Shown here: in pieces, positions 1 to 21,193 of the stretch
Layout of the letters: each line of letters begins with the position of its first letter
Position numbering within the stretch: position 1 is the stretch's first letter
Source: a virus
Virus record (IMG/VR): IMGVR_UViG_3300033146_004417
Coordinates: 1 to 24,441 of that record
Direction: 5' to 3' (one strand)
DNA: 24,441 nt
Program-made: the position numbers and the translations under genes
Notes under the pieces: generated by a model
What the model saw: only the letters and a program-made list of their open reading frames with translations
The model's database searches: none
What the model was told of the DNA's origin: nothing

Positions 1-731
1 CTTCTTATTCTATGACCATCAGCCGTATTAATATAATCTGACGACTTTGAACCAGTTGGTAAATCACTTTTAAGGATAGGATTAAATGTTTTTATTAACC
101 ATTTTTTTGTAACTTCTTTTAAATTATTAGATATTTCTTGATTATTTTTATTTCCATTATCGACCTCACCTATTTCTTCTTTCTTCTTATTTATTTCATC
201 TTCTAATTTTGATATTTCATCTCTTGTTTTATCATCATTTTCAAATATCATAGATTCATTATTTAATTTTGACATATTCTTTAACCCTGGTAATAATGTA
301 TTATCAACATAATTTTCAATCGCTGCTCTTGATTTACTTGTTTTATAACTCATAGCTTTAACTAAATTTTTATCAGCATCTTTAAATAATTCATCAAAAT
401 ATGTTTTATTCACTTTCTGTGTTGATTGAACTCCTTTTATAGCAGTATATAATCCAAATAACATATCAACTAAATATTTTTTCAAATCACTTTCTGTTTT
501 TATATTTTTTAATTGTTTATCCATTGAATTACCACTTATTTGAATATAAGTTTTAAGACTTTTTATAATTTTCTTTGGATCACCACTCTTACTAATATCT
601 TTCATAAAACTAGTTAATGGTTGTGATATTGATTTTCCAAGACTTCTTAAAGATTTTCCTATAAAATCTCTAAATAAACCTTCATTAATTTTGTTATTCT
701 GTATTTGAATAAATTCATTATATTTTAACAT
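1..731 (-). CDS. Capsid-targeting-type protein of unknown function, 3' end beyond window
   Basis: The reading frame opens with ATG at 731-729 and stays open for 243 codons to the left window edge, so the C-terminus is missing. The N-terminus begins MLKYNEFIQIQ and reaches INE|GLF at residues 15-20, which resembles the T4 capsid-targeting peptide followed by an [LI]-x-E|G prohead-protease site. The rest is Lys/Asn/Ser-rich and probably helical, with a charged coiled-coil-like stretch around residues 175-195 rich in Glu and Lys. No enzymatic motif is visible. It is the last gene seen in a five-gene minus-strand operon, 10 bases after the preceding stop. I infer a virion-internal or prohead-core protein; its actual function is unknown. 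Confidence 0.82.
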   Translation of the reverse strand, partial: MLKYNEFIQIQNNKINEGLFRDFIGKSLRSLGKSISQPLTSFMKDISKSGDPKKIIKSLKTYIQISGNSMDKQLKNIKTESDLKKYLVDMLFGLYTAIKGVQSTQKVNKTYFDELFKDADKNLVKAMSYKTSKSRAAIENYVDNTLLPGLKNMSKLNNESMIFENDDKTRDEISKLEDEINKKKEEIGEVDNGNKNNQEISNNLKEVTKKWLIKTFNPILKSDLPTGSKSSDYINTADGHRIR

Positions 732-741
732 TATATTTATT

Positions 742-1491
742 TTATTTTTTTATACCAAAATATTTTGCAGCTCGTTTAACATTTATAGACGAACCAATTG
801 ATATAATTTCACCTTTACAATATTTAACTTTTAAAAGACAATCACTAAATTCAACATTATTAGATATAAATCCACTTTTTATAATACATTTTGTGCCAGT
901 TATTCTATTCTTTATAATAATTTTAGTCGTTAAATACCCTTCAACAATAACTGGTTCATTAATCATTTTAAATAATATTGATTCATATTCAAAATAATCA
1001 TATGGTTTATAATCTGTATTAATTATAAACATCACAGAATCTTTAAAAATTTTATTAAGACTAATTATTATAGTTGAGAAAAAATATTCATTTCTAATTT
1101 GTTTATATTCTATAAATTTATCATCCTTAGAATGAAAAAACTTTATATACCCATTTTTATCAATTGACATACTAAAATCATCAAATTCTACATACAATAC
1201 ATTCAATACATATTTTAATTTTTTTAAATTATCAGATAAAAGCATCTCATTAAAAGTAAAGGACTTATATGATTTAAAATATTGTGAAGTTTTTTTATTT
1301 ACAAATTTTATATCACTAATAATATTATCAATATTCTCATCAATAATAAATTTTTTATATTTATCATTAAATACAAAACAATCATAATCAACACTCCACC
1401 TAACTATACCATTACTTAATAATATTTTAGTTCTACTTGTTCTTATTGCTTCTCCTGTTGATAAATTAACAACATAATCAATTGGATCCAT
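742..1491 (-). CDS. Unknown protein with N-terminal NL-x-TGE...IV-x-W domain
   Basis: This is a 249-residue protein that I do not recognise. It starts MDPIDYVV and, unlike its operon neighbours, has no capsid-targeting-like N-terminus. Residues about 8-46 carry the pattern NL-x-TGE, a hydrophobic LL, IV-x-W, then Y/F-rich residues. The same pattern sits at the C-terminus of the protein at 23656-24441, so the two probably share a small domain. The rest alternates beta-like hydrophobic strands with charged stretches; the C-terminal part has Cys-containing strands but no clear metal-binding CxxC. It lies 5 bases after the stop of the gene at 1497-1739 and 10 bases before the next start, so it is probably co-transcribed with them. 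Confidence 0.8.
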   Translation of the reverse strand: MDPIDYVVNLSTGEAIRTSRTKILLSNGIVRWSVDYDCFVFNDKYKKFIIDENIDNIISDIKFVNKKTSQYFKSYKSFTFNEMLLSDNLKKLKYVLNVLYVEFDDFSMSIDKNGYIKFFHSKDDKFIEYKQIRNEYFFSTIIISLNKIFKDSVMFIINTDYKPYDYFEYESILFKMINEPVIVEGYLTTKIIIKNRITGTKCIIKSGFISNNVEFSDCLLKVKYCKGEIISIGSSINVKRAAKYFGIKK

Positions 1492-1496
1492 ATATC

Positions 1497-1739
1497 TTAA
1501 ATATTTTCATTATCATTTTCTAACCACACATCATCAAAATCATTTTTAAAATCATTTTCTAAATCTTCAGCAGCTTCAATAGTACCAGCATATCCTAACT
1601 TAACCTTATTTTCTCCTTCATTCTTACCATATATTATTATACTACCATGTAATCCTTCGTTAATTTCTAAACTTTTTTTGTAATCATGTATTTCTTCTTC
1701 CGCTCCACTATATTCTTCATATAATTTTAAATATTTCAT
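1497..1739 (-). CDS. Small acidic capsid-targeting-type protein
   Basis: An 80-residue, strongly acidic protein beginning MKYLKLYEEYS, with the [LI]-x-E|G-type sequence INE|GLHG at about residues 26-32. This gives it the same plan as neighbouring genes: a short K/Y/F/E targeting peptide ending in a probable prohead-protease site, then a small mature part of about 50 residues with a beta-like GSIIIYG stretch and an acidic tail. It sits 3 bases after the preceding gene in the minus-strand operon. No family is recognised. The proposed processing and packaging are inferred from similarity to T4 internal proteins, not shown. Confidence 0.8.
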   Translation of the reverse strand: MKYLKLYEEYSGAEEEIHDYKKSLEINEGLHGSIIIYGKNEGENKVKLGYAGTIEAAEDLENDFKNDFDDVWLENDNENI

Positions 1740-1742
1740 TAT

Positions 1743-2132
1743 TTATTTATTTTTTTTATTTAAAAAATCAAGGATTTTATTTCTTATATCAAATAAATTT
1801 TCTGTTTTTATTTCAGTATCTCTTCTTTGTATTTTTTTATATACTTTTGATTTCTTATATTTGCAACTCCATAATAACTTTCCTTTAACAAATATTAATT
1901 TAATTAAAGCATCTTGTTTTTTATGTTCACTATCTAAAGATGGTCTACCATATCCAAATATAGTAACATCTACTCTTTTATATAGATCAACAATATCCAC
2001 TATAAAATTAGTAATCTTATAATCAAATATATAATCTAAAGTATATAAGGATATAATATCCTTTATACCTTTTAACATTTCTTTTTTATCTTTCTTTTCA
2101 TTAAAATTATAAAAATCCTCAAATAATTTCAT
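1743..2132 (-). CDS. Capsid-targeting-type protein of unknown function
   Basis: A 129-residue, Lys-rich basic protein. It begins MKLFEDFYNFNE|K, a variant of the M-K-x-F-x-x-F...N-E peptide shared across this window. The body has a hydrophobic helical segment (residues about 25-50, ISLYTLDYIFDYKITNF-like) and a beta-like region with GYGRPSLDS near residues 60-70. The C-terminal half is rich in Lys and Arg, as would suit a protein packed beside DNA. It starts 6 bases downstream of the gene at 2139-2354 and ends 3 bases before the next start. I recognise no family. Confidence 0.8.
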   Translation of the reverse strand: MKLFEDFYNFNEKKDKKEMLKGIKDIISLYTLDYIFDYKITNFIVDIVDLYKRVDVTIFGYGRPSLDSEHKKQDALIKLIFVKGKLLWSCKYKKSKVYKKIQRRDTEIKTENLFDIRNKILDFLNKKNK

Positions 2133-2138
2133 ATTCTT

Positions 2139-2354
2139 CTAATCTTTCTTTTTACTTATATGTTTTTTAAGAGCTTTTTTAATATCCCGAATAACTTGTT
2201 CTTCATCTATATCTTCATCACCACCAACACTAATAGTTATCTTATAATCATCATTATCCACCACAACTATATCATCATCATTTTCACCTTTTAAAACATA
2301 TTTACCTTTTTCATTTAAAAATTCATCAAAATTTTTAATATCACTTTTTTTCAT
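2139..2354 (-). CDS. Small capsid-targeting-type protein, first gene of operon
   Basis: I start this 71-residue protein at the ATG at 2354, which begins MKKSDIKNFDEFLNE|K. The frame is open further upstream to 2453, but that extension is hydrophobic, runs through the divergent promoter region and overlaps the gene starting at 2415. NFDEFLNE is one of the clearest copies of the shared targeting peptide, with an exact L-x-E site. The remainder is very acidic (a run of Asp/Glu around residues 22-45) and ends in a basic KKHISKKKD tail. A TATAAATA box lies about 15 bases upstream on the same strand. Function is unknown. Confidence 0.82.
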   Translation of the reverse strand: MKKSDIKNFDEFLNEKGKYVLKGENDDDIVVVDNDDYKITISVGGDEDIDEEQVIRDIKKALKKHISKKKD

Positions 2355-2368
2355 TAGATTATTATTTT

Positions 2369-2376
2369 TATTTATA
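2369..2376 (-). promoter_or_regulatory. T4-late-type TATAAATA box
   Basis: The minus strand reads TATAAATA here, identical to the T4 late-promoter consensus, about 15 bases upstream of the ATG at 2354. It would drive the five-gene operon running left. In AT-rich DNA such boxes can arise by chance, so the call rests on its position. Confidence 0.45.
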
Positions 2377-2398
2377 TATAAAAATATCAAATTACAAT

Positions 2399-2409
2399 TT
2401 AATATATAA
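2399..2409 (+). promoter_or_regulatory. TTAATATATAA promoter-like box
   Basis: An exact TTAATATATAA lies 5 bases before the ATG at 2415, divergent from the box at 2369-2376. The same 11-mer precedes several other genes in this window. If it is a -10-like element the transcript would be nearly leaderless. Confidence 0.4.
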
Positions 2410-2414
2410 AAACA

Positions 2415-3638
2415 ATGATAACAAATTTTAAAATATTCGAATTTAATAAACACGACAAATATTTAATTTATAAAAATAGTGATAATTTTACATTTGCAAT
2501 AGAATATGAAATTTGCTCAACAGAATCTAATGATATAGAACCAGAAATTGATGATATTTATGATACGATAGATTATATAAAAGATATAACTTTATTATCC
2601 TTTAAACGTGGATATGGAATGAAAATAAATATTAATAACTATACAAACTTTATTGATAACATATTTAATAAAATATTATCATATTATGATAATGATAAAG
2701 AAGATAAATTATGGAATTCTATTTTAAATAGTAAAAAATATGAAAATAATGACAAAAAATTTATAATAGATATAATATCTCATAATGTTATAAAGTATAT
2801 CGAATCACAAAATATACATTATTCTATTGATATGCTTAAAAAACACTTGCCCAATTTTTATAAAAAATGGGGAAAAACATTTAAATATGAACTAGAAGGA
2901 GATAATGATAAAACCAGAATACTAGAATTTTCACCAAGAACATATATAAAAGGAATAAATAATATTATAGAACAATTAAATGATTTCTATAAAGATTTCA
3001 ATAAACAAAAATATTGGATATTTAATGATAGAACAGCTCTTCACATTAATATAGGTATTATTAATGGAAACCTAAATATAATAAAAGGTCTTATGTTATT
3101 ATCAGATTATAATAGAGATATAAAAACACCATATATATTTAAAAATATAGAAAATAGATTGGGGAACATCCATAATAAATCAATGATCGATACATTAATA
3201 AATGTATTTAAAAATGATATTACGGATAATCTAAACAATTTAAGAAATTTAAAAAATATCAATAAATATAAAGACGAAATAAAAAATATAAATCTGCATA
3301 ATATAGAAGACATTGAAAACCAAATGAATAATCTTTTTTATAATATGAATTTTGATTTTTGGATAAAGGAATTTGGTTTAAATATAACACAAATAAAAAA
3401 TAATTATGTCGAATTTAGATATGTTGGTAATAATGTAAAAAAAGATATCTTAATAGAAAAACTAGAATTTTTTACTTATATTGTCTATTGTATGAATACA
3501 AATTACAAACAAAAAGAATATCATAAAAAATTATATAAATTTATAAATAAATTAAATATACAAGAAAATATAAATTGGGATGAAGAATGGGATGAATTAG
3601 AATTAGATCAAGATGTAAAAAATAAAATAGAAATATAA
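2415..3638 (+). CDS. Amidoligase-like enzyme (putative carboxylate-amine ligase)
   Basis: A 407-residue protein whose spaced motifs resemble the amidoligase branch (Amidoligase_2 type) of the glutamine-synthetase/gamma-glutamylcysteine-synthetase fold. These are FAIEYEI near residues 27-33 (the E-x-E strand), ILEFSPRTY near 169-177 (the E-x-x-SP step), ALHINIGI near 208-215 (matching the GLHVHVG-type strand) and VEFRYVG near 332-338 (a late Arg-containing strand). Such enzymes form amide bonds between a carboxylate and an amine using ATP and could modify peptides or cell-wall material; the substrate here is unknown. The start, MITNFKIFEFN, is a degenerate form of the shared capsid-targeting-like peptide, so the enzyme might be virion-packaged. 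It is transcribed alone on plus and converges on the HAD gene. The family call comes from motif reading only. Confidence 0.6.
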   Translation: MITNFKIFEFNKHDKYLIYKNSDNFTFAIEYEICSTESNDIEPEIDDIYDTIDYIKDITLLSFKRGYGMKININNYTNFIDNIFNKILSYYDNDKEDKLWNSILNSKKYENNDKKFIIDIISHNVIKYIESQNIHYSIDMLKKHLPNFYKKWGKTFKYELEGDNDKTRILEFSPRTYIKGINNIIEQLNDFYKDFNKQKYWIFNDRTALHINIGIINGNLNIIKGLMLLSDYNRDIKTPYIFKNIENRLGNIHNKSMIDTLINVFKNDITDNLNNLRNLKNINKYKDEIKNINLHNIEDIENQMNNLFYNMNFDFWIKEFGLNITQIKNNYVEFRYVGNNVKKDILIEKLEFFTYIVYCMNTNYKQKEYHKKLYKFINKLNIQENINWDEEWDELELDQDVKNKIEI

Positions 3639-3657
3639 AAATAAAATTAAAAAATAT

Positions 3658-4929
3658 TTAAAAATCAAAATCTATAATATCATTTTTATCATTAAATTTA
3701 CTATTACTGGTGGATCTCTTTTTATTTCTAATTAACTTATTAATTATTCTACTTAACTTATATGATGAATTTTTAATTTCTATTTCATTTGTATATAAAT
3801 TATCGTCTTCTTCAAATTCATTATCTTCTTCATTATATCCTATATTAATAATATATTTATTAATATAATCTTTAATTTCTATAATTCTACCATTATTTTT
3901 AATTGTTATACTTTTATAATAATTATACATATTTTGTGCACTTGTATCTCCTACAAAATAATTATAATCCGTATCCCCACTATCTAATTTATCCTTTAAA
4001 ATATTATAAATCTTATCCACTATTTTTCTATCTTTACCCTTTATAAATGGATTATTAAACTCTTCATTAAATTCATAAAATCTATCTAATTTATTAGATT
4101 CTTTAATAGGAAATTTATCTGGTTCCTCTATAAGAATTTCATTTGTATCAAATCTATTTAAATCATTATTAGTAACTAAATGATTATATAATACTATATC
4201 ATTTGTATTTATTCTTTCTGTAATAATTTTAAACAAATCATCATCAGTATTTTTTAATAAATCATTTAAAATTTTTTGACAATCATTAGCATAATCTATA
4301 TTTGTCTTATGATCATCATAAAAATGAACAATATTATACCAGTCTTGTCTTAATGGAACAAATCTATTATTTTTTATTTTGAATCCAATTAAATGTTCTA
4401 ATAAAATATATACTTTTTTTAATGATGTTTCTTCATCGTAATATACTTTAAATTTATCACCAACGAAATATATTTTATCTAAAGACAATCCCATATTTTT
4501 TAATTCTAATCTAAGTTTATTAACAATATCAGAATGGTTTTTTCTATTAGATCTTGCTGTCAATAACCCTATACTAACATTTTTACCTCTTAAATGTTCA
4601 ATGTTATCCAATAAATAATCAACCTTTGTTTTATCTAATATTTTCTTATCATATAAATTATTAAATGATATACCCAACCTTTTTATATTCTCAAATTTAG
4701 TCTTTCTATAAACTCTATCATACATTTCTCTACTTATATAATACTTACCACCATTATATTCTATTGGTATATTATCTTTTTTATAAATACCATTTCTTAT
4801 AAGAGAAAATTCCAAATTTGATATTTTTATTATTGGTTTAAAAGGTTTTTCTTTATCAATTAACCATATATCGGAATGAATTTTCCATAATGTACCATCA
4901 AGATCAAAAAAATGTATTTCCTTATTCAT
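3658..4929 (-). CDS. HAD-superfamily phosphatase with extra C-terminal domain
   Basis: A 423-residue protein with haloacid-dehalogenase motifs in order: FFDLDGTLW at residues 7-15 (nucleophile D9, acid D11), LLTAR at 122-126 (motif II Thr), and HFYDDHKTNID at 202-212 (the paired metal-binding DD, 205-206). This gives a phosphatase or nucleotidase core of about 215 residues, resembling HAD proteins common in large phages. The remaining ~200 residues are unusual: Asp/Glu/Asn-rich, with an internal FYEFNE|EF at about 284-291 that looks like the shared capsid-targeting peptide, and another charged segment after it. It follows three capsid-targeting-type genes on the same strand with a 42-base gap. 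The substrate cannot be told from sequence. Confidence 0.8.
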   Translation of the reverse strand: MNKEIHFFDLDGTLWKIHSDIWLIDKEKPFKPIIKISNLEFSLIRNGIYKKDNIPIEYNGGKYYISREMYDRVYRKTKFENIKRLGISFNNLYDKKILDKTKVDYLLDNIEHLRGKNVSIGLLTARSNRKNHSDIVNKLRLELKNMGLSLDKIYFVGDKFKVYYDEETSLKKVYILLEHLIGFKIKNNRFVPLRQDWYNIVHFYDDHKTNIDYANDCQKILNDLLKNTDDDLFKIITERINTNDIVLYNHLVTNNDLNRFDTNEILIEEPDKFPIKESNKLDRFYEFNEEFNNPFIKGKDRKIVDKIYNILKDKLDSGDTDYNYFVGDTSAQNMYNYYKSITIKNNGRIIEIKDYINKYIINIGYNEEDNEFEEDDNLYTNEIEIKNSSYKLSRIINKLIRNKKRSTSNSKFNDKNDIIDFDF

Positions 4930-4971
4930 GTATAAATATTAATTTTCTTTTAAAGTTCATCTTCATCGTGA

Positions 4972-5136
4972 CTATTGAATTTTTTTTAATTCTGAATAAA
5001 ATATTCTCCCACTACTTGTTTCTATCTTTAATATAGTTTTATAATCAACATCTACAACTTTCATTAATTTTATATCCTCTTCATTATCAATTACTATAAA
5101 TTCTTCATTAACTTTATATTCACTAAATTTTTTCAT
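4972..5136 (-). CDS. 54-residue capsid-targeting-type protein
   Basis: This small frame starts at the ATG at 5136-5134 and ends at TAG (4974-4972). It begins MKKFSEYKVNE|E, clearly the shared targeting peptide, followed by an acidic and hydrophobic beta-rich body with VVDVDY and ILKIET strands. It sits 15 bases after the stop of the gene at 5152-5595 and 42 bases before the HAD gene, in the same minus-strand run. The peptide match and operon position make it convincing despite its size. The compact beta-rich body could be a small SH3- or Tudor-like fold, but that is a guess. Confidence 0.7.
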   Translation of the reverse strand: MKKFSEYKVNEEFIVIDNEEDIKLMKVVDVDYKTILKIETSSGRIFYSELKKIQ

Positions 5137-5151
5137 AATTCTTTAATTTTT

Positions 5152-5595
5152 TTATAAATTTACAATTCCATTATCCAAATCGTTTTCTCTTTGTTTTCTT
5201 CCTTCTTCATTCTTATCATCTTCTTCCTTTTCCTTTTTATGTTCTTCAAAATAATTTCCAATTTTATGATATTTTTTAACAAACCATTTAACACCATCAT
5301 CATTCCCAATTGATGTATGAATATAATCAAATGGACTATCATCCAACCAAAACAATCTTTTACATGGCTTTTTATTTATCGTTCCTTCCCTTCTATAATC
5401 TGGTATAAATTTCCATATATCATTACCAAACATATTCTTACCATCTTTAAACTGCAACATTCTATATTTATGTCCATTATAATCAACTGTTATTATCCTA
5501 TATCTTGTTCTAAATTCTTCTGCAAGATCAGCAAATCCGTGTTCTGAATAATCATCTCTCATTTTTTCACTTATAAAGTTTTTATATCTTTTCAT
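5152..5595 (-). CDS. Capsid-targeting-type protein with charged tail
   Basis: A 147-residue protein beginning MKRYKNFISE|K, the closest copy in the window to the T4 internal-protein peptide MKTYQEFIAE (M, K, Y, F, I and E in register). The middle is rich in aromatics and beta-like (YRMLQF, WKFIPDYRR, LFWLDDSPFDY). The last ~35 residues alternate Lys and Glu/Asp, suggesting a helical charged tail. Its ATG overlaps the stop of the upstream gene by one base (TAATG), so the two are probably translationally coupled. No family is recognised. I infer a packaged, proteolytically processed internal protein. Confidence 0.83.
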   Translation of the reverse strand: MKRYKNFISEKMRDDYSEHGFADLAEEFRTRYRIITVDYNGHKYRMLQFKDGKNMFGNDIWKFIPDYRREGTINKKPCKRLFWLDDSPFDYIHTSIGNDDGVKWFVKKYHKIGNYFEEHKKEKEEDDKNEEGRKQRENDLDNGIVNL

Positions 5596-5879
5596 TATTC
5601 AAAACCTTCATTTTCAGGTCCACTACCATCAGATTTATCAAGATCAAACTCTACCCAATTCATAAAATCATCAACAACATCCTTTTCACCATTAAGTCTT
5701 ATAAAAACTTTTATTTGACTAACACCATCAACTGTACTAATATTTATATCAATACCCATATCTTGTGCTTTATTCTTCAATTTATATTCAAATTCATCAT
5801 ACTGATACTTATCTATATCATATTGAATTTTCTTTAATACACTTTCATTTAAAAAATCATCGAATTTTTTCATATTCAT
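5595..5879 (-). CDS. Small acidic capsid-targeting-type protein
   Basis: A 94-residue protein beginning MNMKKFDDFLNE|S; translation could start at 5879 or at the second ATG at 5873. KKFDDFLNE|S is a textbook-like targeting peptide with an exact L-x-E|S site. The mature part has a helical, charged first half (YDIDKYQYDEFEYKL), then a beta-like SQIKVFIRL strand and an acidic C-terminus ending in PENEGFE. It is first of a run of four genes going left, just beyond the terminator of the tail block. The minus strand carries TATATATA about 20 bases upstream, a possible promoter. Confidence 0.83.
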   Translation of the reverse strand: MNMKKFDDFLNESVLKKIQYDIDKYQYDEFEYKLKNKAQDMGIDINISTVDGVSQIKVFIRLNGEKDVVDDFMNWVEFDLDKSDGSGPENEGFE

Positions 5880-13466: not shown

Positions 13467-14060
13467 TTATTTAAAATAATCTATTATTTTTACATCAAAT
13501 CCACATTCATCTAAAATATTTATTAATATTTCTGGATCATTACAATAAATAGTAAATTCTCTTGAATTATCAAAAATATATTTAGAATTATAAAAATAAG
13601 TAATATAAAAAATTCCAAGTTTATTACCAGTTATTATATGATGAGAACCATAATCAAATCTAAAAGCATTATACATTTTATTACTAAATACTGTATCTAA
13701 TCTAAATCTATTTCTACCTGAATAATTTCTTATTTTCTTAGTAATTCCTTTAAATAATAATTTTATTCTATTTATATTAAACACTGTTCCCCTTATTATA
13801 ATATCACTTTCTTCTTCATCCCAATATTCTTCATCAAAATCAATATGTTTATCTTCATTTTTTATAAATTTTTTGCCCCAATTTTTACCAAATATATCAT
13901 TAAATACTTCCTGATAATAAGATTGAACATTATCAAACTCTTTATTATATTTATCCCATTTAAATATATTATCTTTATACTTTTCTTTGAAAGTTTTATT
14001 AGGAAATGAAATATCTTTAATTTTATTATTATATATAAATAAATTATAATTTTTAATCAT
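13467..14060 (-). CDS. Unknown protein with degenerate capsid-targeting-like start
   Basis: A 197-residue protein beginning MIKNYNLFIYNNKIK. The start resembles MLKYNEFIQIQNNKIN of the gene at 1-731, but it lacks an [LI]-x-E site, so packaging is only a possibility. The body is charged and aromatic-rich (NWGKKFIKNEDKHIDF, then EEYWDEEESD), followed by a basic beta region (RNRFRLDTVF) and a C-terminal alpha/beta part ending ILDECGFDVKIIDYFK. No family is recognised. A TTAATATATAA box lies 3 bases upstream of its ATG. It is divergent from the 733-residue structural-type gene. Confidence 0.75.
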   Translation of the reverse strand: MIKNYNLFIYNNKIKDISFPNKTFKEKYKDNIFKWDKYNKEFDNVQSYYQEVFNDIFGKNWGKKFIKNEDKHIDFDEEYWDEEESDIIIRGTVFNINRIKLLFKGITKKIRNYSGRNRFRLDTVFSNKMYNAFRFDYGSHHIITGNKLGIFYITYFYNSKYIFDNSREFTIYCNDPEILINILDECGFDVKIIDYFK

Positions 14061-16417: not shown

Positions 16418-16642
16418 ATGAAAATTTTAAAGGAATATATCAATTTTTATTATAATTATTTCATTAAAGAAGATTTTGACATCCTCAAAAAATGGGCAAT
16501 ACCAATTATAAAACCCGCATGGTTTATAAATTCAATTTTAAGATGGATGATATCTCCACTGGGTTTTCCATTTTTTTACTTATATAAAAAAAATGAAATT
16601 AAAATAAAAAATTTAATTGATGAATTATTAAAAGAAATTTAA
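16418..16642 (+). CDS. Small protein with hydrophobic centre
   Basis: A 74-residue protein beginning MKILKEYINFYYNYF, faintly like the shared targeting peptide but without a clear [LI]-x-E site. Residues about 26-56 are hydrophobic (IPIIKPAWFINSILRWMISPLGFPFFYLY), interrupted by Pro and Gly and flanked by Lys, so it may be membrane-associated. It ends with a charged helix (IKNLIDELLKEI). A possible TAnnTTTG promoter lies 15 bases upstream. It does not match a holin or another lysis protein that I know; function is unknown. Confidence 0.65.
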   Translation: MKILKEYINFYYNYFIKEDFDILKKWAIPIIKPAWFINSILRWMISPLGFPFFYLYKKNEIKIKNLIDELLKEI

Positions 16643-19699: not shown

Positions 19700-20019
19700 A
19701 AATAAATAAAATATATAAAATAGAATATAAAAATAATACATTTATTTATTATTTCTCAAAAAAGAATAATGGATTATTAAAATTTTATATAAAAATAAAA
19801 AAAGGACATCTTTTTTTTGATAAAGATGTCCTTATATACAATTCGTATCATATAATAAAAACAAATACTATATTTAACTATAACAAAAATAAAATAGAAA
19901 ATTTTATTTTAAATATAATACATAATTACATATCTGTATCAAATCAGAAAAGATTTCGTAAAATATTTAAAGATTACAACGAGCACCGTAAGCACTGTGC
20001 CACCCATTTTCCTTATTAG
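19693..20019 (+). CDS. Unknown small basic protein overlapping a convergent gene
   Basis: A 108-residue, Lys/Asn/Ile-rich protein. I start at the ATG at 19693, which overlaps the stop of the RNase H-like gene (ATGTTAA), suggesting coupling. The N-terminal half is beta-like (IYKIEYKNNTFIYYF, LLKFYIKIKKG), the C-terminal half helical (KIENFILNIIHNYISV). Two oddities lower confidence: a terminator hairpin (19802-19833) that serves the opposite strand lies inside it, and its last 53 bases overlap the end of the gene at 19967-21193. It may be a real gene in a crowded junction or just open frame in AT-rich DNA. Confidence 0.5.
   Translation: MLKINKIYKIEYKNNTFIYYFSKKNNGLLKFYIKIKKGHLFFDKDVLIYNSYHIIKTNTIFNYNKNKIENFILNIIHNYISVSNQKRFRKIFKDYNEHRKHCATHFPY
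19802..19833 (-). terminator. Terminator of the convergent minus-strand gene
   Basis: A 12-bp stem (AAGGACATCTTT with AAAGATGTCCTT) is followed on the minus strand by a T-rich run, 134 bases after the stop at 19967. On plus no T-run follows. It lies within the frame at 19693-20019. Confidence 0.65.
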
Positions 20020-21193
20020 GAACTCTTGATGCTATCTCATTTGTTTTAAAATTAACAACCATAGTATCCCATGGTGGGTACATTTTATAACATGTTTTTT
20101 TAATCTTTATTCTAAAAATATCATCTCTACCCAATCTCATATCATTCACATTAAATGCACCATTATCTCTTGCCCATCTTTTAATCAATTGATCAACTTT
20201 TGATCCTCTTCCACCTTCACCATACATATAATTTAATAAAATATACTCTTCTCCTGCTTTAAATTTTCCATGTGTATGTGTTTGAATACCAACAAACATC
20301 ATACTTCTACCATGTATCTTACCTTTATGATATACTACTAAACATTTTATATTTTCTGTATTTTCTGTATATACTTTAAATTTATTAGAATTTTTTTCTC
20401 TGTTCCCGCTAAAATTAGCACAAGATGAACTTCTCCATCCACCACTAATAGTATCGCAATCATAAGCATCCAGAATATCGTCACCCTCTAATATTTTAAT
20501 AGTATAACTATCATCAAATAACATTCTCCATTTATTTAAGAAAATTTCTATATCTCTTTGATTAAGATTATTATCATAATATTCTCTTGTTGTAATCCTC
20601 GTTAACATTCTATTGAGTTTTAATATCGTTCTTCTCTTAGATTTAAAAGGATCAGTACCTTCTTCGTAATGTCTTCTCGATAAACATGATATATTACCTT
20701 TATCGTCAACATCAAGATAATCTACTGGAAATTCTAAAAGATTCGATTTTTCTATATGTTTCAAACCCAATATAAATTGGGCAACTTTATCTAAAGTATC
20801 GATTTTTTGAAATCTTCTACTATTAAAATAAAATACTTTCTTTATCTTTTTATTATCAGTTTTTCTAATATATCTTTGATAAAATCCTATATCAAGTTTC
20901 TTTTTGTCATTAATTCTAAGTACTTTAAAAAATTCTTTACTATTTAAAAAATCAAAAACTTTATCTGGTAATTTACCTTTATTTTTATCTCTAACAAAAA
21001 TAATATCTCCAACATCTATCTTTAAATCTTGTTTTACTTTTAATTCTTTTAATCTATTTTCCATTTTATCAGATATAGTTATACTATCATACTCAGTATT
21101 ATCAATATCATTTGGGACTTCAATAAGATCATCACTATCAAATTTTTGTTCTCCTAATGATTCATTTAAATATTCTAAATACCCTTTAATCAT
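19967..21193 (-). CDS. Large capsid-targeting-type protein with conserved SC...GR domain
   Basis: A 408-residue protein beginning MIKGYLEYLNE|S, with an exact L-x-E|S site after residue 11, so it is a candidate packaged protein. The rest resembles a phage protein type that I have seen repeatedly but cannot name. A helical part is RRTILKLNRML at about 187-197, then DIEIFLNKWRMLF at 214-226 and ILEGDDILDAYD at 234-245. Next come SSSCANFSGN at 255-264, FKVYTENTENIKCLVVY at 272-288 and GKIHGRSMMF at 291-300, matching a pattern S-C...Y..N...LV......GR. After that come GEGGRGSKVDQLIKRWARDNGA and a C-terminal CYKMYPPW. The conserved Ser, Cys and Arg suggest a binding or catalytic site, but no activity can be assigned. 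It has its own TTAATATATAA box and downstream terminator. Confidence 0.82.
   Translation of the reverse strand: MIKGYLEYLNESLGEQKFDSDDLIEVPNDIDNTEYDSITISDKMENRLKELKVKQDLKIDVGDIIFVRDKNKGKLPDKVFDFLNSKEFFKVLRINDKKKLDIGFYQRYIRKTDNKKIKKVFYFNSRRFQKIDTLDKVAQFILGLKHIEKSNLLEFPVDYLDVDDKGNISCLSRRHYEEGTDPFKSKRRTILKLNRMLTRITTREYYDNNLNQRDIEIFLNKWRMLFDDSYTIKILEGDDILDAYDCDTISGGWRSSSCANFSGNREKNSNKFKVYTENTENIKCLVVYHKGKIHGRSMMFVGIQTHTHGKFKAGEEYILLNYMYGEGGRGSKVDQLIKRWARDNGAFNVNDMRLGRDDIFRIKIKKTCYKMYPPWDTMVVNFKTNEIASRVPNKENGWHSAYGARCNL

Follow-up and report, generated by a model that had tools for sequence, protein, structure and literature searches.

The window, as we call the whole stretch of DNA analyzed here, is a 24,441-base fragment of a huge phage and makes up an entire virus record (IMGVR_UViG_3300033146_004417). 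Several of its genes encode proteins that begin with a short peptide, here called the tag, that resembles the capsid-targeting sequence (CTS) of phage T4 internal proteins. We defined an exact tag as [FY]xx[FY][LI]xE close to the protein start. The genes with exact, displaced, or degenerate tags are listed below; a slash marks the cleavage-like site, and scores are those of two motif models described further on (class 1, first form of the tag; class 2, second form).

1-731, minus strand: tagged gene, truncated at its 3′ end by the window boundary; MLKYNEFIQIQNNKINE/G at 681-731; relatives at L060:12012, L200:11849, and L201:5831
1497-1739, minus strand: small gene starting with the second form of the tag (MKYLKLYEEY, 1710-1739), with INE further in (MKYLKLYEEYSGAEEEIHDYKKSLEINE/G); class 2 score, 15.1
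1743-2132, minus strand: gene with a degenerate tag, MKLFEDFYNFNE, at 2097-2132, read by eye and below the model threshold
2139-2354, minus strand: small tagged gene; exact tag MKKSDIKNFDEFLNE/K at 2310-2354
4972-5136, minus strand: small gene with a degenerate tag, MKKFSEYKVNE (one residue inserted), at 5104-5136
5152-5595, minus strand: tagged gene, 147 amino acids; MKRYKNFISE/K at 5566-5595; class 1 score, 10.0
5595-5879, minus strand: tagged gene, 94 amino acids; MNMKKFDDFLNE/S at 5844-5879; score, 22.1
19967-21193, minus strand: tagged gene, 408 amino acids; MIKGYLEYLNE/S at 21161-21193; score, 16.7

The exact tag was found in 4 window genes (2139-2354, 5152-5595, 5595-5879, and 19967-21193). 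Only 0.10 such genes are expected, and none of 5000 shuffles of N-terminal residues 2 to 30 reached 4. The original prediction, made by reading the window alone, had claimed at least six exact tags. Four of these stand, whereas 1-731 and 1497-1739 have the aromatic first half of the tag with INE lying deeper than the exact motif allows. Among the genes proposed to carry degenerate tags, 4972-5136 and 1743-2132 are plausible, but 2415-3638, 13467-14060, and 16418-16642 fall below threshold and are singly indistinguishable from chance. The displaced INE of 1-731 looks like genuine spacing variation when its relatives are compared: all four proteins keep [IV]NE/[GN]xF, at a distance from the aromatic pair that varies (L060, MEQLKFDEFVNE/GLF; L200, MLKTYNEFLNDSMVNE/GFF; L201, MKNYNNYINE/NIF). 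Since the distance to the site varies within this family, the signal appears to have two separable parts. The tag of 5595-5879 is retained in L060:8081 and L201:9270 (45% and 34% identity, respectively, in the aligned part). A Pfam search with 5152-5595 gave nothing above the cutoff. Window positions 3658-4929 encode an untagged HAD-like protein whose place next to the small tagged genes is conserved in the window-like relatives covering that stretch.

At the nucleotide level, a search of 50,697 phage records gave no near match to the window. The complete genome most closely related to it is LR756501.1 (735,411 bases): the 1280-amino-acid tail sheath protein of the window is 56% identical to its LR756501.1 counterpart over the full length, and the adjoining 322-amino-acid protein also points to this genome. 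A 2020 survey of huge phages reported a 735-kb genome and named the Mahaphage clade, to which all five of its genomes larger than 634 kb belong and whose predicted hosts are Bacteroidetes (PMC7162821). LR756501.1 is presumably that 735-kb genome. We called genes by a simple longest-open-reading-frame scheme in three complete huge phages of 635–735 kb, LR756501.1 (W01), LR745206.1 (W02), and LR756502.1 (W06); in parts of LR756504.1 (W07) and LR756500.1 (W08); and in two window-like fragments (G001 and G002). T4, Flavobacterium phage MaF61, and part of Lak-A1 served as the comparison set.

A motif model for the first form of the tag was built from W01, where 66 gene starts scored at or above the threshold of 8, versus 2 of 3187 internal methionines. 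Orthologs of tagged genes led to a second, commoner form, MK[YH][LI]K[LTK][FY]E, which was modeled from W06 with the same threshold. The numbers of genes with either form are given below, with expected counts derived from internal ATGs; the counts are partly circular for W01 (first form) and W06 (second form), and W07, W08, G001, and G002 trained neither model.

W01: 97 of 1010 genes (expected, 2.4)
W02: 91 of 943 genes (expected, 1.3)
W06: 98 of 967 genes (expected, 5.1)
W07, part: 19 of 360 genes (expected, 0)
W08, part: 9 of 311 genes (expected, 1.4)
G001: 24 of 150 genes (expected, 0.6)
G002: 7 of 16 genes (expected, 0)
Window: 4 of 30 genes (expected, 0.5)
T4: 3 of 268 genes (expected, 0.7)
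MaF61: 2 of 195 genes (expected, 0.4)
Lak-A1, part: 2 of 456 genes (expected, 4.3)

Approximately 10% of all genes are tagged in each of the three complete genomes, and the four records outside both training sets agree. Tagged genes are clustered in W06 (25 adjacent pairs versus 10 expected). An intermediate tag in W08, MKYIKEYEDFINE/A, bridges the two forms. The set is thus larger than originally proposed and includes a second form that had not been separated from the first.

The tag consists of common residues (M, K, F, Y, I, N, and E) and might be an artefact of the composition of an AT-rich genome. However, internal ATGs yield only 1 to 5 expected tags per complete genome. Controls with the reversed pattern gave 0 or 1 match per record, and a looser-gapped scan of W01 gave 4 control matches versus 38 matches. 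A DNA or RNA element at the start codon could also be misread as a peptide, and tagged genes in W02 and W06 do share an upstream sequence, TTAATATATA. Against this, codon use within tags equals codon use in the bodies; hence, selection acts on the peptide, and we rejected an element acting at the DNA or RNA level. With the internal-ATG, reversed-pattern, and codon controls already contradicting both versions of the artefact explanation, we consider it barely credible. The upstream sequence itself lies approximately 15 to 5 bases before the start in W02 and W06 and is found at about 60% of tagged versus about 23% of untagged genes, whereas a TAnnTTTG-like element in the same genomes is rarer upstream of tagged genes. 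TTAATATATA may be a late promoter, for which only a few marker genes were available, or a ribosome signal, which its position would also fit.

The tag is carried by unrelated proteins. The 66 tagged proteins of W01 represent 59 families, and 90 tagged proteins yield a consensus that starts with MxKKYxxFIxE and retains almost nothing beyond. Where a domain could be recognized, its homology begins after the tag, at residues 23 to 25 in RNA ligase and at approximately residues 30 to 35 in DeoC aldolase. Tags also come and go. The RNA ligases of W02 and W06 have a tag and those of W01 and T4 have none, and the family of 19967-21193 combines a shared body with the first form, the second form, or no tag. 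Among reciprocal orthologs of tagged genes, the partner was tagged at a frequency of 0.58, versus a base rate of 0.072, and 7 ortholog pairs switch from one form to the other. In W01, W02, and W06, 69 genes have T4 homologs, and the two RNA ligases are the only ones among them with a true tag. The DnaB helicase of W01 (W01:630708; MEKFFFTWVLE) was discarded as a chance match, as its W02 and W06 orthologs have no tag. These results support the original proposal of a T4-like tag on unrelated bodies; similarity ends at the tag, which is not part of a continuing domain.

The W01-trained model recovers the T4 signal. When applied to T4, it placed gp61.1 and two internal proteins beginning with MKTYQEFIAE, one of which is ipIII, far above the other 265 genes. 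In the T4 CTS, targeting requires residues 4 and 7, whereas processing depends on residues 8 and 10; a D10 version blocks cutting and keeps targeting (PMC9026906). In the first form of the huge-phage tag, the aromatic pair [FY]xx[FY] occupies the IPIII targeting positions (4 and 7), and an [LI]xE processing site closes the tag. The targeting and processing residues of T4 correspond to the aromatic pair and to [LI]xE, respectively. T4 gene 61.1 itself (AF158101.6, 18966-19130) starts with MKTFKEFIKE. Since it scores above the known internal proteins, gp61.1 may be a further packaged T4 protein.

The original prediction called for a prohead protease of the gp21 type. We found a gene for an S77 (gp21-type, PF03420) protease adjoining a Gp23-type capsid gene (PF07068) in W01, W02, W06, W07, and W08, i.e., in every tagged huge phage searched that spans the head region. 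The S77 match is above the Pfam cutoff in W08 and below it, beside the capsid gene, in W01, W02, W06, and W07. The capsid proteins have a conserved N-terminal [LIM]xE site (W01, HQMNE/N; W02, HSINE/N; W07, HQIHE/N; W08, HELYE/N), and similar sites occur at protease N termini (W01, KKINE/A; W07, LKVNE/S). T4 was left out of this comparison because its sequence was misaligned at its known site. Two S77 genes, W01:73913-76336 (807 amino acids) and OR513085.1:166979-170602 (1207 amino acids), are much longer than T4 gp21 (212 amino acids), suggesting a protease-scaffold fusion. W01 also encodes, away from the head genes, a second, short S77-like protein (W01:11314-11850; 178 amino acids), comparable to the diverged protease paralog of SPN3US.

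Two cultured phages, PAU and Chryseobacterium phage MA9V-2, also have an S77 protease and carry versions of the tag. In MA9V-2, the exact tag starts four annotated genes. One of these, MA9V2_208 (MKTFTYFINE/A), lies between a portal-like gene and the protease; another (MKNFFSFINE/A) is flanked by the head completion gene and the DNA-end protector gene. The N terminus of the MA9V-2 capsid protein includes SEFINE/A and GFLNE/S. In PAU, 18 gene starts match MKx[LI]xxL[YF]E, mostly as MK[TS], with none for the reversed control and 0 or 1 in the other phages tested. The PAU tagged genes cluster near the head genes and include those for scaffold gp152 and both proteins annotated as "internal capsid protein," gp142 and gp154. 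In several, such as MKTISKLYEAKLNE/A, LNE/[AS] follows the tag at a short distance, which is also the layout of window gene 1497-1739. N-terminal sequencing showed that the mature PAU capsid protein comprises 520 of 585 residues (PMC5646251). The PAU sequence at the measured cut is GERALMEN/YQIS, placing the cut at most 1 residue from LME/N. This is the nearest to experimental proof of protease specificity in the wider group.

Taken together, the tag is likely to be a T4-type capsid-targeting signal present on approximately 100 unrelated proteins per genome in the Mahaphage relatives of the window, mostly accessory, with some scaffold or core proteins among them. By extension from T4, a freshly synthesized protein would dock to the core or scaffold of the assembling head through its aromatic pair ([FY]xx[FY]; in the second form, MKxLKx[FY]E). 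If [LI]xE follows, a gp21-type (S77) head protease would remove the tag and free the body inside the head. The second form may be cut at [LTI][FY]E, be cut at a later [LI]NE, or stay uncut. A minority of the tagged proteins would be head scaffold or core proteins. Most would be accessory (RNA ligase, polyphosphate kinase, aldolase, a 2H-phosphoesterase/exonuclease fusion, a GNAT-like protein, and many without a known domain), and these would most probably be delivered to the host along with the DNA and be active before the phage's own genes are expressed.

A different cargo is conceivable for the same destination. The tag could direct mainly small core or scaffold proteins to the head interior, where they shape or fill a large capsid rather than being injected as effectors. 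The tagged gp152, gp142, and gp154 of PAU are consistent with such a structural role, as are the position of MA9V2_208, which corresponds to the site of the small core genes in T4, and the effect of T4 IPIII on head assembly (PMC9026906). However, clear enzymes are tagged, the spread of 66 proteins over 59 families and the weaker coverage of orthologs in W02 and W06 are better suited to accessory genes, and T4 Ip1 to Ip3 are injected and inhibit type IV restriction enzymes (PMC12373910). We consider a mainly structural cargo unlikely. The same PAU proteins qualify the idea of a modular injected-effector system put forward in the original prediction: the tag is modular, but some of its bearers are annotated as scaffold or internal capsid proteins and not as effectors. 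Overall, what that prediction observed is partly confirmed, and its interpretation is partly supported.

The tag could instead be a general localization or interaction signal whose target is a membrane, some phage protein, or a replication compartment; its likeness to the T4 signal would then be due to convergence. A short, amphipathic-looking N-terminal peptide on a tenth of all genes would fit such a signal, and so would the absence of a tag excess in the part of Lak-A1 examined, a phage that has the same protease and capsid families. On the other hand, this explanation makes coincidences of the cross-match to T4 internal proteins, of the [LI]xE site that the tagged proteins have in common with the phages' own capsid and protease, and of the positions and annotations in the head modules of PAU and MA9V-2. 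We regard it as very improbable.

Several points, the Lak result among them, weigh against capsid targeting as set out above. Packaging of the tagged huge-phage proteins, although strongly indicated, is inferred from gene sequences. The second form has no [LI]xE directly after the aromatic part, and its processing is uncertain. In reciprocal ortholog pairs, the tag is found on one side only in 56 and on both sides in 38. Approximately 100 packaged species per head would be far above any internal-protein set that we found documented. Finally, there are no head genes within the 24.4-kb window, which stops short of the head region.

A more specific version of capsid targeting would have approximately 100 tagged proteins, the products of about a tenth of the genes, in each head. 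Their signal would have two parts, an aromatic half for targeting and a separable half for the protease, with variable spacing between them. Cutting would release the proteins that carry both, those with only the aromatic half would retain it, and any new gene could be recruited as injected cargo by the addition of about ten codons. We see the arguments for and against this version as evenly balanced.

The principle is known from T4; what appears to be new is the scale and the occurrence in Mahaphages. T4-type internal proteins share with the huge-phage set an N-terminal 10-residue tag, an aromatic pair, an [LI]xE end, unrelated bodies, a gp21-family protease, and a Gp23-type capsid. In contrast, only 3 T4 genes pass the threshold, versus approximately 100 per huge-phage genome, and the huge phages have a second form without an adjacent [LI]xE and a cargo that includes metabolic and RNA repair enzymes. 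At least 10 internal proteins have been reported across T-even relatives, and detection of the signal sequence has already been used to list T4 internal proteins (PMC12373910). PAU resembles the huge phages in its MK[TS][LI]xxL[YF]E tags (often followed by LNE/[AS]), many small tagged genes, S77 protease, and Gp23-type capsid but differs in having only 18 matches, mostly in the head region, in a 219-kb genome. We found no description of the PAU tag as a targeting signal in the literature searched. In SPN3US and phiKZ, a prohead protease likewise processes many head-interior, ejected proteins; however, these mostly have long propeptides, are cleaved at [ASGT]xE, and share no short tag (PMC5694885). 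P1 DarB is an injected antirestriction protein that an N-terminal signal sends into the head (PMC9024508), but it is a single protein in which about 30 residues are used. No report of such a tag set in Mahaphages, or at such a scale, was found in a search that missed most subscription papers.

Most tagged bodies had no match, and proteins with the second form had almost no Pfam matches. Those that could be named include polyphosphate kinase 2 (PPK2; two genomes), RNA ligase, DeoC aldolase, a nucleotidyltransferase-like protein, and a DEDD exonuclease fused to a 2H-phosphoesterase related to 2′-5′ ligases and to the anti-CBASS protein Acb1, for which the Acb1 match was below its cutoff. PADLOC gave matches to viperin-like, NUDIX, and effector domains that were not assigned to single proteins. 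The sequence of 19967-21193 matched nothing meaningful among solved structures. Its predicted structure has a mean predicted local distance difference test (pLDDT) score of 45, rising to 70 to 80 in parts of residues 230 to 350. Matches of this model to GNAT folds (E value, ~4e-4; low TM-scores) weakly predict an acetyltransferase-like core, which we treat as a lead only. This family is expanded in W01 (452191-455043, 534082, and 701184). Its members have conserved residues near SCANF and YGxGG and possibly a GNAT fold, and each of them either has a tag of its own or lacks one. In the tagged genes W01:455943, W02:182970, and W06:207650, VVDVQK resembles a cysteine hydrolase (nicotinamidase-type) motif; searches of Pfam and of solved structures gave no confirmation. 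T4 Ip1 to Ip3 have only their leader in common, are injected, and each block a different type IV restriction enzyme (PMC12373910). Because of this precedent, counterdefense is the natural expectation for the tagged proteins, and assigning such a role to any single one of them would be a guess by analogy.

If capsid targeting is correct, the largest known phages would carry a very large, premade cargo of host takeover proteins, and a simple rule applied to the sequence of a megaphage would pick out dozens of proteins that reach the host ready-made at the start of infection. These would constitute a large new source of counterdefense and takeover proteins, most without a known domain, and would be relevant to the question of what makes heads and genomes of this size worthwhile. 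The start of infection by uncultured phages would become directly testable, with the cultured phages PAU and MA9V-2 carrying versions of the tag.

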